From Bacteroidia bacterium (GTDB lineage Bacteria > Bacteroidota > Bacteroidia > Bacteroidales > Prolixibacteraceae): DNA of 37,090 nt. Below the pieces are notes generated by a model. It saw only the letters and a program-made list of their open reading frames with translations, was not told where the DNA came from and ran no database searches. The DNA is taken from positions 1 through 37,090 of the forward strand of contig JAPLDT010000036.1 of the NCBI GenBank assembly GCA_026391315.1. Reading direction: 5' to 3'. Below are positions 6,867-13,561 of this stretch, piece after piece; the stretch's first letter is position 1; each line of letters opens with the position of its first letter. A program made the position numbers and the translations under genes.

Positions 6867-7784
6867 TTAGCTGATATTCTGAATATCATATGGTGTTTCC
6901 TGATAAACATAGTAATTGAGCCAGTTCATGAAAAGGAGGTTGGCATGGGATCTCCAGCTCAGAATTGGCCTTGATTCCGGATTGTCGTGAGGGTAATAAT
7001 TCTTTGGAACCTCAATGGGCAGACCCTTTTCCGAATCGCGTTTGTACTCTCTGTCCAAAGTTCTCAGAGAATATTCAGGATGTCCGGTGACAAATATTTG
7101 CTTGCCATTTTCGGCTATGGCCATGTAAACACCCGCCTGATCTGACACAGAGAGAATTTTAACGCCGGGAACAGAGGCAAAATCCTTCGCTTTCAATTCT
7201 GTATGACGGGAGTGAGGCGCCCTGTAAATATCATCAAAACCCCTGAAAAGAGGAAGTTTCTTGTCGGTAACAGTATGATCAAATACACCAAACATCTTCT
7301 TACCCAAAGGATATTTGGGTATTCCGTAATGGTGGTAGAGTCCGGCCTGTGAGGCCCAACAGATAAACATGGTAGAAGTAACATGCTGATGGGCCCAGTC
7401 AAATATTTCGCGGATCTCATCCCAATAGTCTACCTCTTCAAAAGGCAGATGTTCGACTGGTGCGCCTGTGATGATCATTCCGTCAAATTTCTTCTTTTTA
7501 ATCTGTTCGAAAGTCAGGTAGAACGATTTCAAATGATCTTTTGAGGTGTTTTTTGGGGTATGCCCTTCAATCTGCAAAAAATCAATCTCTATCTGAAGCG
7601 GAGTGTTGGAAAGCAACCGAAGCAGATCTGTTTCGGTTGCAATCTTCAATGGCATCAAATTTAGAATCACAATCTTTAACGGACGAATATCCTGGTGCTC
7701 GGCCCTTGTCTGGTCGATCACAAAAATGTTTTCTTCTCTCAACAAATCGATGGCAGGTAATCCATCCGGCAGATTCAAAGGCAT
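6867..7784 (-). CDS. metA: Homoserine O-acetyltransferase, MetA type
   Basis: The 305-residue protein matches the MetA family in length and motifs. The catalytic Cys142 lies in FICWASQAGL, and His235 and Glu237 lie in FVTGHPEYSL. Residue 111 is Glu (TGAPVEHLPFEE). In characterised family members Glu111 goes with acetyl-CoA use and Gly111 with succinyl-CoA use, so this enzyme probably makes O-acetylhomoserine. This fits the neighbouring metY, whose enzyme uses that substrate. It is the last gene of the minus-strand lysC-metY-metA unit. The 126-bp gap to metY holds an inverted repeat (AATACCCA at 7841-7848 and TGGGTATT at 7884-7891). It also holds a possible -7 box on the minus strand (7901-7908), so metA may have some independent expression. 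Confidence 0.95.
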   Translation of the reverse strand: MPLNLPDGLPAIDLLREENIFVIDQTRAEHQDIRPLKIVILNLMPLKIATETDLLRLLSNTPLQIEIDFLQIEGHTPKNTSKDHLKSFYLTFEQIKKKKFDGMIITGAPVEHLPFEEVDYWDEIREIFDWAHQHVTSTMFICWASQAGLYHHYGIPKYPLGKKMFGVFDHTVTDKKLPLFRGFDDIYRAPHSRHTELKAKDFASVPGVKILSVSDQAGVYMAIAENGKQIFVTGHPEYSLRTLDREYKRDSEKGLPIEVPKNYYPHDNPESRPILSWRSHANLLFMNWLNYYVYQETPYDIQNIS

Positions 7785-7910: not shown

Positions 7911-9224
<1,314 letters not shown>

Positions 9225-9254: not shown

Positions 9255-10628
9255 TTACTTTTCAAAAAATTCACGGTGTATTGCTTTGACAGCAGCAGTT
9301 CTGTCAGACAATTGGACCAGATAATAACTGACAATGGGTGAGGCCCCGGAACAACTCATCACCACATTAATGCTTTCGGAGGCCAGGGCAGTAAATATTC
9401 TTGCCGCGATACCATAATTGTCTGTAATGCCATGACCAACAGCAGCCACAATTGCGATGCCATCCTCTATCTGCAGCTTACCGACCGCAGAGAGTTCAAT
9501 AGCGCTCACAACGGCAAAGGCATTTTGCAAATCTTTTTTAGCAAGAAGAATGTTGATTGAAATCTGCGAGGTCAAAACAGAACTGATATTGATACCTGCC
9601 AGGTGAAGCGCCGTGGTTACCTTGGCCAAAATACCCGGTTTGAGTCCTACACCGGGACCTTTTAATTTCAGCAATCCAAAATCATCACTGTAGGTCACAC
9701 TTTTGACCACTCCGTTCAAGACTGATTTTTCATGACTGATAATGGTCAATGGTTTAGCTACATCCAATGTTCCGTAGATATTGAAGATACGAACGGCAAT
9801 ATGAGGATCGATAAGGGGTTCAACCGTTCTGGGGTGCAAAATTTTGGCTCCAAAATAGGCAAGTTCTGCGGCCTCATTGTACGACAATTTTTCGATCAGT
9901 ACCGGGTTGCTTACCAGTTTCGGATCTGAACTGAGAAAACCATTTACATCCTTCCAGATATCAAGAGAGGTGGCTCCCACGCATCTGGCAAGGGCTGCAG
10001 CGGCATAATCACTTCCACCCCGGCCGAACAAAGTAGTTTTTTGTTCTTGGGATACCCCGTAAAAACCAGGGGCAACAAAGATCACCTCTTCACTCAGCGA
10101 CTCCCTCACCCTGCTTGTTGAAAGGTGAAAATCAGCAGTTGCATTCCCAAATTCACCATCCGTAGTCAATCCGATGGTTTCAGGAAACGCAATTTTTGAT
10201 TCCAAATTTTGGGAGTTCAGTATCCCATTCAGGAAAATTGCTGACAATCTCTCACCATAGGAAAGAACATGGTCTTCGAGCGCTTTTGAGGCATCGCCGG
10301 TCAGCGCGATTCCCACCAGATAATTTTTTAGTTCATCCAACTGGTCCTGAATCAATTTTATAGTTTTTGACCGGAGTTCAGTATCCTGGATGAAATAGTT
10401 TAAAGGGCCTATTTTAAGATCGTAAAGGTATTGCACACTCTTTGTAGCTACTCCTTCATCGTGACGGGCTTTTTCCAGTGCATCGACCAGAAAATTGGTC
10501 ACTCCATAAAAGGCGGAAACTACAACAATCAATGGTTGATTGTAATTTTTTACTACTTGAACGATGCGGTGAATCTCTTCATTGCTTCTAAGATTTGATC
10601 CACCGAATTTCACTACAATTTTCGGCAT
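9255..10628 (-). CDS. lysC: Monofunctional aspartate kinase with C-terminal ACT domains
   Basis: The 457-residue protein begins MPKIVVKFGGSN, the nucleotide-binding start of the aspartate kinase fold. It also has FGRGGSDYAAAALA and SYNEAAELAYFGAKILHPRT, both characteristic of the family. The last about 150 residues hold two ACT-like segments (VGLKPGILAKVTTALHLAGI and VGHGITDNYGIAARIFTAL), which normally bind an inhibitory amino acid. No homoserine dehydrogenase part follows, so it is monofunctional. It is the first large gene of the operon with metY and metA, which suggests supply to the methionine branch. A leader with a Met-rich short open frame lies just upstream (10719-10832). The symbol lysC is used by family convention; the isozyme class is not certain. 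Confidence 0.93.
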   Translation of the reverse strand: MPKIVVKFGGSNLRSNEEIHRIVQVVKNYNQPLIVVVSAFYGVTNFLVDALEKARHDEGVATKSVQYLYDLKIGPLNYFIQDTELRSKTIKLIQDQLDELKNYLVGIALTGDASKALEDHVLSYGERLSAIFLNGILNSQNLESKIAFPETIGLTTDGEFGNATADFHLSTSRVRESLSEEVIFVAPGFYGVSQEQKTTLFGRGGSDYAAAALARCVGATSLDIWKDVNGFLSSDPKLVSNPVLIEKLSYNEAAELAYFGAKILHPRTVEPLIDPHIAVRIFNIYGTLDVAKPLTIISHEKSVLNGVVKSVTYSDDFGLLKLKGPGVGLKPGILAKVTTALHLAGINISSVLTSQISINILLAKKDLQNAFAVVSAIELSAVGKLQIEDGIAIVAAVGHGITDNYGIAARIFTALASESINVVMSCSGASPIVSYYLVQLSDRTAAVKAIHREFFEK

Positions 10629-10686
10629 TGTATAAAATTAAAGATATAAAACGTGATGAATTAGTCTTTTCAGACAGGGATTGGAA

Positions 10687-10720
10687 AGCCTTCAAACAGG
10701 ATAAAGCCCGAGAGAAGGCT
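10687..10720 (-). promoter_or_regulatory. Stem-loop right after the Met-rich leader frame
   Basis: Read on the minus strand, AGCCTTC (10720-10714) pairs with GAAGGCT (10693-10687) across a 20-nt loop. The first arm overlaps the leader stop codon, so a ribosome held on the last Met codons would cover it. A shorter 4-bp stem (AGCC with GGCT inside the loop) would compete for the same arm. A second small hairpin, GTCT-GAAA-AGAC, follows downstream. No long T run is present, so whether any of these terminates transcription is not clear. Confidence 0.45.
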
Positions 10721-10832
10721 ATTGCATAGACATAGACATGGTGCGCATAGAAGAGATAATGCCGGTAAAAACACAACATGGCTGTTGGGTCTTTGTAACA
10801 TTTTTAACATCTGTGTAAATCAATCCAATCAT
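10719..10832 (-). CDS. Candidate leader peptide of the lysC-metY-metA operon
   Basis: An ATG at 10832 opens a 37-codon frame that ends in TAG at 10719-10721. It starts M-I-G-L-I-Y-T and its last nine residues are M-R-T-M-S-M-S-M-Q, so four of nine codons are Met, next to the stop. The start lies about 20 nt downstream of the transcription start expected from the -7 box at 10859-10866, and lysC begins 90 nt after the stop. Short peptides rich in the regulated amino acid, followed by alternative hairpins, are the hallmark of ribosome-mediated attenuation. All three operon genes serve methionine synthesis. The match of codon content to pathway is the main support; no homologue could be checked. 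Confidence 0.5.
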   Translation of the reverse strand: MIGLIYTDVKNVTKTQQPCCVFTGIISSMRTMSMSMQ

Positions 10833-10858
10833 CTTGCGCGAATAATTTTTACTGATTG

Positions 10859-10890
10859 CAAACATAAACACTCCAAATTACAATTCCAAA
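10859..10890 (-). promoter_or_regulatory. Promoter of the lysC-metY-metA operon
   Basis: On the minus strand, TTTG (10890-10887) and TATGTTTG (10866-10859) are separated by 20 bp, a good fit to the Bacteroidota -33/-7 pattern. The start of transcription would be near 10853, just ahead of the leader frame. Confidence 0.6.
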
Positions 10891-10973
10891 TGTTTTTGAA
10901 TCATTCTAAATAATTTTTTGTTAAATTTTAAACTGCTTCTAAAAAATAGTGACATTTCAGTCAAACAATGCCC

Positions 10974-11001
10974 TTTGGGAAACTGTATTTGTGTAGTTTT
11001 G
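10974..11001 (+). promoter_or_regulatory. Likely promoter of the GH20 gene
   Basis: TAGTTTTG at 10994-11001 fits TAnnTTTG and lies 25 bp before the ATG at 11027. A TTTG at 10974-10977 is at 16-bp spacing, shorter than usual, so only the -7 box carries weight. It diverges from the lysC operon promoter. Confidence 0.5.
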
Positions 11002-11026
11002 CTAGTAAAATATAAAAGTATTTACC

Positions 11027-12691: not shown

Positions 12692-13561
12692 TTATTTAAC
12701 GCTGATCACCAAAACTTTTGACAAGCTCCAGAACTCAGCCTGGTTAAGAATAACAAGATTGTCGGCTGATTTCTCACCTTCAATTTTATACGAACTGGCA
12801 GGATGTGTACTGATCACAGTTGCTTTCTTCTTCATGATTGGAATAGAGGTAACTTTAGTAATGTCAACTTTGGTCATCAAAGACTTGTCGATATTGCTGT
12901 TTACATCTTTCGCTGTTCCTAGGAAACCCTCTTTCTTGATGATGTTCTTCTCCTTAAGTTCCTTGACAGTACCAATGATGAAGTAGGCTGTGTTTAGCTC
13001 AGCTGTCTTCTCCTCAATCACCTTTTGTTTGTCCTTGTTTTCGTTGCTAAGATTGGAAACATCGGTATTCAAGGTGGTAACCTGGGTATTCAGATTTTCA
13101 ACCTTGATATTCATTTTGCTTAGTTCCTCTTTCAAATTGGCAATCTGTCCGTCCTTTTCAGTAATTTGACTGTTAAGGTTTTTGATCATTAATTCAAGCT
13201 CAGCAACATGCTTGCCTGATTTCTTCAGCTTTGCAGAGAGATCAGCAACCAAAAGCCTGTTTTTCTGCAACAAAGAGTAAATGTAATTGATATCGCTTTG
13301 AATTTGCTCTTTGCGGTCACCTTTTACTTCAAATCCACCTTTGGCTGTCTTGTCGATAATCTTCTCCTTTTGTTTGATGGAATCAAGATTTGATTGAATT
13401 GAATTGAATGCATCAACAAATTCTACCAGATTGGCATCTTTTGAACTACCTGCCATCATCAGGCTGTCATTCTTAGCCTGCAGTCTTGCAATCTCCTTGC
13501 GATTACATCCGGTTGTACCAATTACAACGCCAATAAGTAACAAATAAATAACTTTTCTCAT
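12692..13561 (-). CDS. Coiled-coil lipoprotein of unknown function
   Basis: The 289-residue protein starts with a lipoprotein signal (MRKVIYLLLIGVVIGTTGCN, Cys19). Residues about 22-185 form a long coiled coil with many Lys, Glu, Leu and Asn heptads (for example LKKSGKHVAELELMIKNLNS). The last about 100 residues look globular (TAYFIIGTVKELKEKNIIKK and SYKIEGEKSADNLVILNQAE). The architecture resembles envelope proteins of Bacteroidota of unknown role; I do not recognise a named family. A -7 box TAAATTTG on the minus strand (13707-13714) lies about 146 bp upstream. The gene converges on the GH20 gene and shares its terminator. Confidence 0.8.
   Translation of the reverse strand: MRKVIYLLLIGVVIGTTGCNRKEIARLQAKNDSLMMAGSSKDANLVEFVDAFNSIQSNLDSIKQKEKIIDKTAKGGFEVKGDRKEQIQSDINYIYSLLQKNRLLVADLSAKLKKSGKHVAELELMIKNLNSQITEKDGQIANLKEELSKMNIKVENLNTQVTTLNTDVSNLSNENKDKQKVIEEKTAELNTAYFIIGTVKELKEKNIIKKEGFLGTAKDVNSNIDKSLMTKVDITKVTSIPIMKKKATVISTHPASSYKIEGEKSADNLVILNQAEFWSLSKVLVISVK

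Follow-up and report, generated by a model that had tools for sequence, protein, structure and literature searches.

A candidate methionine-responsive leader-peptide attenuator upstream of lysC-metY-metA in the Prolixibacteraceae

The lysC-metY-metA locus and its leader

The window, by which we mean the whole stretch of 37,090 nt that was analysed (contig JAPLDT010000036.1, from a Bacteroidia bacterium of the family Prolixibacteraceae), carries on its minus strand the genes lysC (aspartate kinase, 457 aa, 9255-10628, with its ATG at 10628), metY (O-acetylhomoserine sulfhydrylase, 433 aa, 7911-9212) and metA (homoserine O-acetyltransferase type, 305 aa, 6867-7784). An earlier reading of this DNA, made from the letters alone (the sequence-only reading), had named the three genes in this order, and model searches agreed with it: MetY scored 670 bits against TIGR01326 (cut-off 495.1) and MetA 486 bits against NF047918 (cut-off 460.5). 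The fit of MetA to an acetyltransferase model, above the cut-off, suits MetY as an O-acetylhomoserine sulfhydrylase. Among relatives with a similar lysC locus, the genus-named records were Tangfeifania and Mariniphaga, both Prolixibacteraceae. The window's own genome has three further aspartokinase-type matches (L002, L003 and L004, one of them in an 843-aa frame), and these would fit a role of the window lysC as a dedicated methionine isoform. By eye, no Met leader was found at a metH-like gene of this genome (L331) or at a second gene with an S-methyltransferase domain (L332). Elsewhere in the window, the minus strand at 12692-13561 matched NF052320, 'Cbp1 family collagen-binding glycoprotein adhesin', with 260 bits (cut-off 90).

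The sequence-only reading had also described, upstream of lysC, a promoter-like pair, a Met-rich leader frame and a hairpin, and we found each of these on the minus strand. The promoter-like pair at 10859-10890 consists of a -33 element TTTG (10890-10887), a 20-nt spacer and a -7 box TATGTTTG (10866-10859), and fits the Bacteroidetes consensus of -33 TTTG and -7 TAnnTTTG as given in PMC7366714; a TAnnTTTG box lay upstream of the leader in 89 of the 97 family rows examined. The putative leader ORF (10719-10832) has 37 codons, with its ATG at 10832 and a TAG stop at 10721-10719, and its tail MRTMSMSMQ, which adjoins the stop, is specified by the control codons ATG CGC ACC ATG TCT ATG TCT ATG CAA (10722-10748), of which four are for Met. 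A longer reading of 48 aa from 10865 was set aside, since its start falls inside the -7 box. From the leader stop to the lysC ATG the distance is 90 nt.

Two RNA helices are predicted in this leader, both on the minus strand. Hairpin B (10687-10720), whose first arm overlaps the stop codon and which lacks a following U-run, comprises an outer stem of 7 pairs (10720-10714 with 10693-10687) and an inner helix of 4 bp (10710-10707/10700-10697). Helix A would pair the leader start region with the part of the tail that precedes the last Met codons: its 5' strand (10828-10839) surrounds the leader start codon and its 3' strand (10743-10757) lies in the tail, ahead of the final Met codons. Both strands were placed by analogy with the family, in which swap tests support the helix. 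The last three Met codons of the window leader lie within the linker separating the two helices. The 91-nt stretch 10640-10730 of the window folded at -19.1 kcal/mol (z -2.67, with 4 of 200 shuffles as good), and a longer stretch of 146 nt did not stand out (z -1.34, matched by 20 of 200 shuffles).

Conservation of the leader frame and predicted structures in the family

A covariance model of the leader element, R1, was built from 26 copies; at E 0.01 it had matches in 96 of the 120 family genomes. Two genomes, G403 and G017, were subtracted because their only matches were judged spurious, and 94 genomes with credible copies remained. With LysC, MetY and MetA as queries, the next gene was LysC in 90 of the 94 copies and MetY in the other four (L091, L095, L098 and L106); these four cases indicate that the element tracks methionine synthesis and not lysC as such, and its recurrence in 94 of 120 family genomes, always ahead of one or the other gene, argues that it is more than chance. 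The sequence-only reading had named a lack of conservation of the leader frame in close relatives as grounds for refutation; this outcome did not arise, since the Met-rich frame is conserved. Family matches at E 6e-4 or worse (L132-L137) were judged spurious, with no methionine gene after the five that were inspected (in L136 the matched letters are identical to those of L135). Of the 26 family genomes without a credible match, 12 were checked: 9 have only distant aspartokinases (no more than 32% identity), the best of which sit in long frames of fused size, and the other 3 (G017, G036 and G366) carry this lysC behind a variant leader. In a phylum sample of 296 genomes, R1 left only the window's own genome once L138, a hit judged spurious and with no methionine gene downstream, was rejected. 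Three family genomes without an R1 match (L188, L191 and L193) show an even more Met-rich uORF, ending ..MMMRMLxRMSK-stop, before metY, and the stretch right after this uORF looks, by eye, complementary to the Met codons.

Met occupied codon positions -2 and -4 relative to the hairpin in all 93 of the anchored family copies, a count that is partly circular because the R1 model contains these bases; L119, in which the codon there is CTG, was left unanchored. In the aggregate, Met accounted for 355 of the 930 last-ten codons of the anchored copies. For a test of frame, 97 family rows were taken, of which 8 had no promoter box and 89 were scored. Read from the first ATG past the box, MxM codon pairs were in frame in 88 of the 89, the exception being L086; for L019 the test is trivial, since its first ATG is itself in the tail and the start is probably GTG. 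In 88 of 89 rows no more than 46 nt separate the -7 box from the first ATG, which leaves no room for an aptamer in most family copies. The leader peptide upstream of its Met tail was weakly constrained, with a pN/pS of 0.57 and 798, 906 and 947 substitutions at the three codon positions (six genera, pairs at least 72% identical), and strong purifying selection upon it was not found in these six genera. Weak constraint upstream of the control codons is usual for leader peptides. The TAG stop was lost in five copies (L103, L107, L119, L121 and L124), where the frame extends 15-33 nt into the hairpin.

Hairpin B was the strongest local structure among fold windows placed relative to the stop (mean z -4.84, 17 genus representatives), the next strongest having z -1.76 (10 nt earlier and overlapping) and -1.31 (80 nt upstream). 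The sequence-only reading had further called for a search for co-varying stems, and two helices, A and B, co-evolve in the family. The inner helix of B gave 10 two-sided cells against 3.3 in shuffles, and its covariation score was above all 500 shuffles; the number of covarying pairs was 3, a count reached in 111 of 500 shuffles. The outer stem gave little covariation (0 of 6 pairs in one alignment) because it is nearly invariant; a two-sided change in it was seen in L114, L115 and L116, and L029, whose leader is outside the 94, carries a different paired stem. No terminator-like site was found in 10500-11020 of the window, where the sequence-only reading had already noted the lack of a long T run, and TTTT occurred in the next 8 nt after only 5 of 93 family hairpins (mean 2.5 T). 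For these two reasons an intrinsic terminator was rejected. Several other Bacteroidota SAM-I loci do show plain hairpin-plus-U-run terminators.

Helix A was assessed by a swap test, in which pairing partners were exchanged between genomes. With one sequence per genus (13), native pairings averaged -13.63 kcal/mol versus -8.80 for swapped pairings, and with 40 sequences -14.28 versus -9.71; in neither case were any of 20000 permutations as low. Restricted to the window's genus and g15 (17 sequences), the test had 24 of 20000 permutations as low. The native partner was the best of its row in only 11 of 40, 5 of 13 and 1 of 17 sequences, respectively. Dinucleotide shuffles gave a modest signal (mean z -1.15, 21 family sequences), and in the window alone helix A did not stand out from shuffles (z -0.81; 38 of 200 were as low). 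By these comparisons the predicted helix A is supported across the family, yet is weak in the window's own sequence. In a scan of 278 window pairs, covering the leader and the lysC start, only A and B went beyond z -6, and the two helices co-occur in the predicted folds of several representatives. For the pair e+66/G-22 (z -3.9), the two members coincide partly or wholly in 27 of 30 sequences. No competing antiterminator partner for hairpin B was found among the 278 pairs, and sequestration of the lysC start by the leader was rejected because the same scan gave no strong co-evolving pairing.

SAM-I riboswitches, Met-rich leaders and exchanged control codons

At the Rfam gathering score, SAM-I (RF00162) had no match in the window and 0 in its genome, and no family of Rfam 15 matched the window at that score or L001, the locus that holds the leader, at E up to 1. 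Rfam was applied to part of the family loci, and SAM-I was present in L011-L014, L104, L113, L256 and L333. At the order level, with the threshold at E 0.05, 48 of 295 genomes had R1 matches. We inspected 26 of these loci outside the family (L142-L167), with genes called by tblastn with LysC, MetY and MetA and from the first ORFs: 6 precede a methionine gene, 19 do not, and L147, at a contig edge, was left unjudged; 20 listed rows without a locus lie outside the 26. The six copies precede metY (L142, L145 and L156) or lysC (L144) by tblastn, and metH (L143) or metX (L146) by eye. Their hairpins are different from those of the family, and SAM-I lies directly upstream in five of them (L142, L144, L145, L146 and L156), with none reported in L143.

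When 198 genomes of the order were searched for SAM-I itself, 54 of them proved to carry it, at 61 sites in all. When gaps under 100 nt between riboswitch and gene were excluded, 49 of the 61 were kept, and 23 of these contained an ORF (15 aa or longer) whose final 16 residues include MxM, versus 0.21 expected from shuffles; one of the 23 (L256, in G016) belongs to the window's family. The distance from aptamer to ORF start is 9-16 nt in 22 cases and 39 nt in the remaining one. At six other SAM-I sites a metH-like gene, judged by eye, starts 12-20 nt after the aptamer, which suggests that the leader ORF occupies the place of a directly regulated gene. Across 44 SAM-type loci, ATGNNNATG occurred in frame with the post-aptamer ATG 24 times, versus once in each of the other two frames. 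Among the SAM-type loci, a hairpin placed right at the stop was not general (mean z -0.81, weak support, from the 32 of 39 kept after omission of L201, L208, L220, L221, L233, L248 and L251). Nor was helix A supported there, 1425 of 5000 permutations being as low; its tests omitted the same seven loci, L222 and short leaders, with 28 kept for shuffles and 30 for swaps.

We also read by eye 40 SAM-I loci (30 from the class and 10 from the wider phylum) out of at least 207 phylum genomes with SAM-I, and only L293 and L308 showed a similar tail. In these two, uORFs with the motif RMCM appear, by eye, between the SAM-I site and an outer-membrane-protein-like gene. Four loci of the same class (L304, L307, L315 and L320) share a leader ORF after SAM-I, MK..S.LY.GYE.LN.IFEE..., that is not Met-rich, and the start of the gene after it resembles, by eye, an outer-membrane receptor.

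At a few loci the control codons themselves are different. Three congeneric genomes (L013, L014 and L333) have a leader after SAM-I that reads MIT...SML, with Thr and Ile codons and, in 2 of the 3, Asn codons as well, and they keep the TAGCCTTC hairpin before lysC. Thr, Ile and Asn are other amino acids of the aspartate family. In L233 the leader tail is SCCCFCCC-stop, with six Cys codons in place of MRMQ, and its congener L244 ends FFYMRMQ-stop; both leaders follow SAM-I and lie ahead of a metY-like gene. The Thr/Ile and Cys exchanges are better explained by stalling that is specific for the codon than by a fixed arrest peptide or by an RNA motif alone, and the swapping of control codons at the same place, in these few loci, fits codon identity as the signal.

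Proposed mechanism and comparison with known systems

We think it fairly probable that the element is a methionine-responsive leader-peptide attenuator of lysC-metY-metA, which would act by ribosome stalling and would not be of the classical type. The attenuator proposed in the sequence-only reading stands to that extent, namely in its conserved Met frame and its tie to methionine genes, and the layout of classical amino-acid attenuators that was claimed for it does not, as there is neither an intrinsic terminator nor a competing hairpin partner among the 278 window pairs. When Met-tRNA is plentiful, the ribosome would clear the tail and depart, helix A would reclose the leader start and hairpin B would form; the untranslated RNA behind this hairpin would then be terminated early, most likely by Rho and/or pausing, which we propose for the last step in view of the missing U-run. 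Under a shortage of methionyl-tRNA, the ribosome would stall on the linker Met codons between A and B, hold the leader start open and cover the 5' arm of B, and RNA polymerase would reach lysC-metY-metA. Since a ribosome that lingers at the stop would mask the hairpin arm as well, the two states are distinct only to the extent that release is fast. What sequence comparison establishes is the anatomy, the reading frame, the family-wide helices and the link to methionine genes; the stalling, its direction, the last step and the action of hairpin B we infer.

In related families, the SAM-I aptamer may gate the leader start in place of helix A, closing it at high SAM, and SAM-I plus leader would give serial SAM and methionyl-tRNA input. 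It is quite possible, although we put this more tentatively, that many methionine genes across the order are run by a two-stage device in which SAM-I gates the start of a Met leader and stalling gates the operon, with the aptamer swapped for helix A in the window's family and the codons exchangeable. For the aptamer we infer loss from the window's family, not gain elsewhere.

The leader might instead alter the translation of lysC, by reinitiation, coupling or mRNA protection, and not its transcription. We hold this to be rather unlikely; our confidence in it overlaps with that in the preferred explanation because both share a stalling core and differ in the last step alone. The dearth of U-runs after the 93 family hairpins speaks for it, and so do the six metH-like genes that start so closely behind SAM-I, where translational gating looks likely in these organisms. 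It is opposed by the lack of a strong co-evolving pairing between the lysC start and any leader segment in the scan and by the distance from leader stop to gene, which varies from 82 to 157 nt across the 30 scanned sequences. For the last step, transcription with Rho or pausing is more likely and translation less likely.

Arrest by the nascent peptide, for which TnaC is the precedent, would have a C-terminal MxMxMR-stop peptide stall the ribosome on methionine or SAM, with charged tRNA not the signal. The rigid Met residues at -4 and -2 and the C-terminal Arg of 76 of the 93 copies exceed what codon counting needs (these are bases in the search model), and ends like MPLMPMCMR or MPSMSMCMR recur across several families. 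Yet the last residue does vary (R, Q, H, C or L), position -3 varies freely among the 93 anchored copies, tails of Thr/Ile or Cys occupy the same place, and the five copies without the stop add residues after the Met tail. We judge this explanation improbable. On a further view the Met codons would only reflect an RNA motif (AUGCGAUAGCCUUC), structured or bound by protein, and the ORF would not be translated, which we think very improbable. In its favour, TAGCCTTC/GAAGGC is nearly invariant in the family and the upstream peptide is poorly conserved. Against it, the reading frame is constant when measured from a start codon that was placed independently, neither helix contains the last Met codons, and L142, L144, L145 and L146, which belong to other families, retain the Met tail next to hairpins of different sequence.

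The attenuator that we favour can be set beside several known systems. Classical amino-acid attenuators, as in the trp, his, thr and ilv leaders, share with it a short leader ORF, cognate control codons before a biosynthetic operon and a downstream hairpin. The present element differs from them in its Met codons, in a family-wide helix that would pair the leader's own start and in a stop codon inside the stem; also, no U-run terminator and no competing antiterminator were found, so that it fails two defining classical features. Methionine control in bacteria is usually described through SAM riboswitches, T-boxes or repressors. SAM-I (the S-box, RF00162) likewise serves methionine genes and lies directly upstream of Met leader ORFs elsewhere and at some family loci, whereas it was not found in the window or its genome, and where it forms a composite it is followed by a leader ORF in place of a terminator. 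A Met-codon leader without a U-run terminator would add a likely Met-tRNA sensor to methionine control; its riboswitch-bearing and riboswitch-free forms would offer a natural case of one device in two versions, and the leader is a testable regulatory part for a phylum in which RNA-level control is poorly charted.

A full-text literature search, which covered few subscription papers, gave no description of such a Met-leader element in the titles or the starts of abstracts among the matches listed. The Cys leader ORFs of actinobacterial cys operons (PMC1262725) have no obvious terminator, and Rho was suggested by the authors; they share with the present element this lack and the run of control codons adjoining the stop, and differ from it in phylum and amino acid. 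The co-evolving hairpin, the start-pairing helix and the SAM-I partners in relatives set the present element apart from those leaders. The SAM-I riboswitch of Xanthomonas also binds uncharged initiator tRNA, according to PMC7270179, and so shares the bringing together of SAM and Met-tRNA information on one methionine leader; the difference is that its expression platform binds the tRNA directly, and the main text of PMC7270179 is without the words open reading frame, uORF or leader peptide. The actinobacterial Cys leaders (PMC1262725) and the dual-input SAM-I of Xanthomonas (PMC7270179) are the nearest described relatives that we found.
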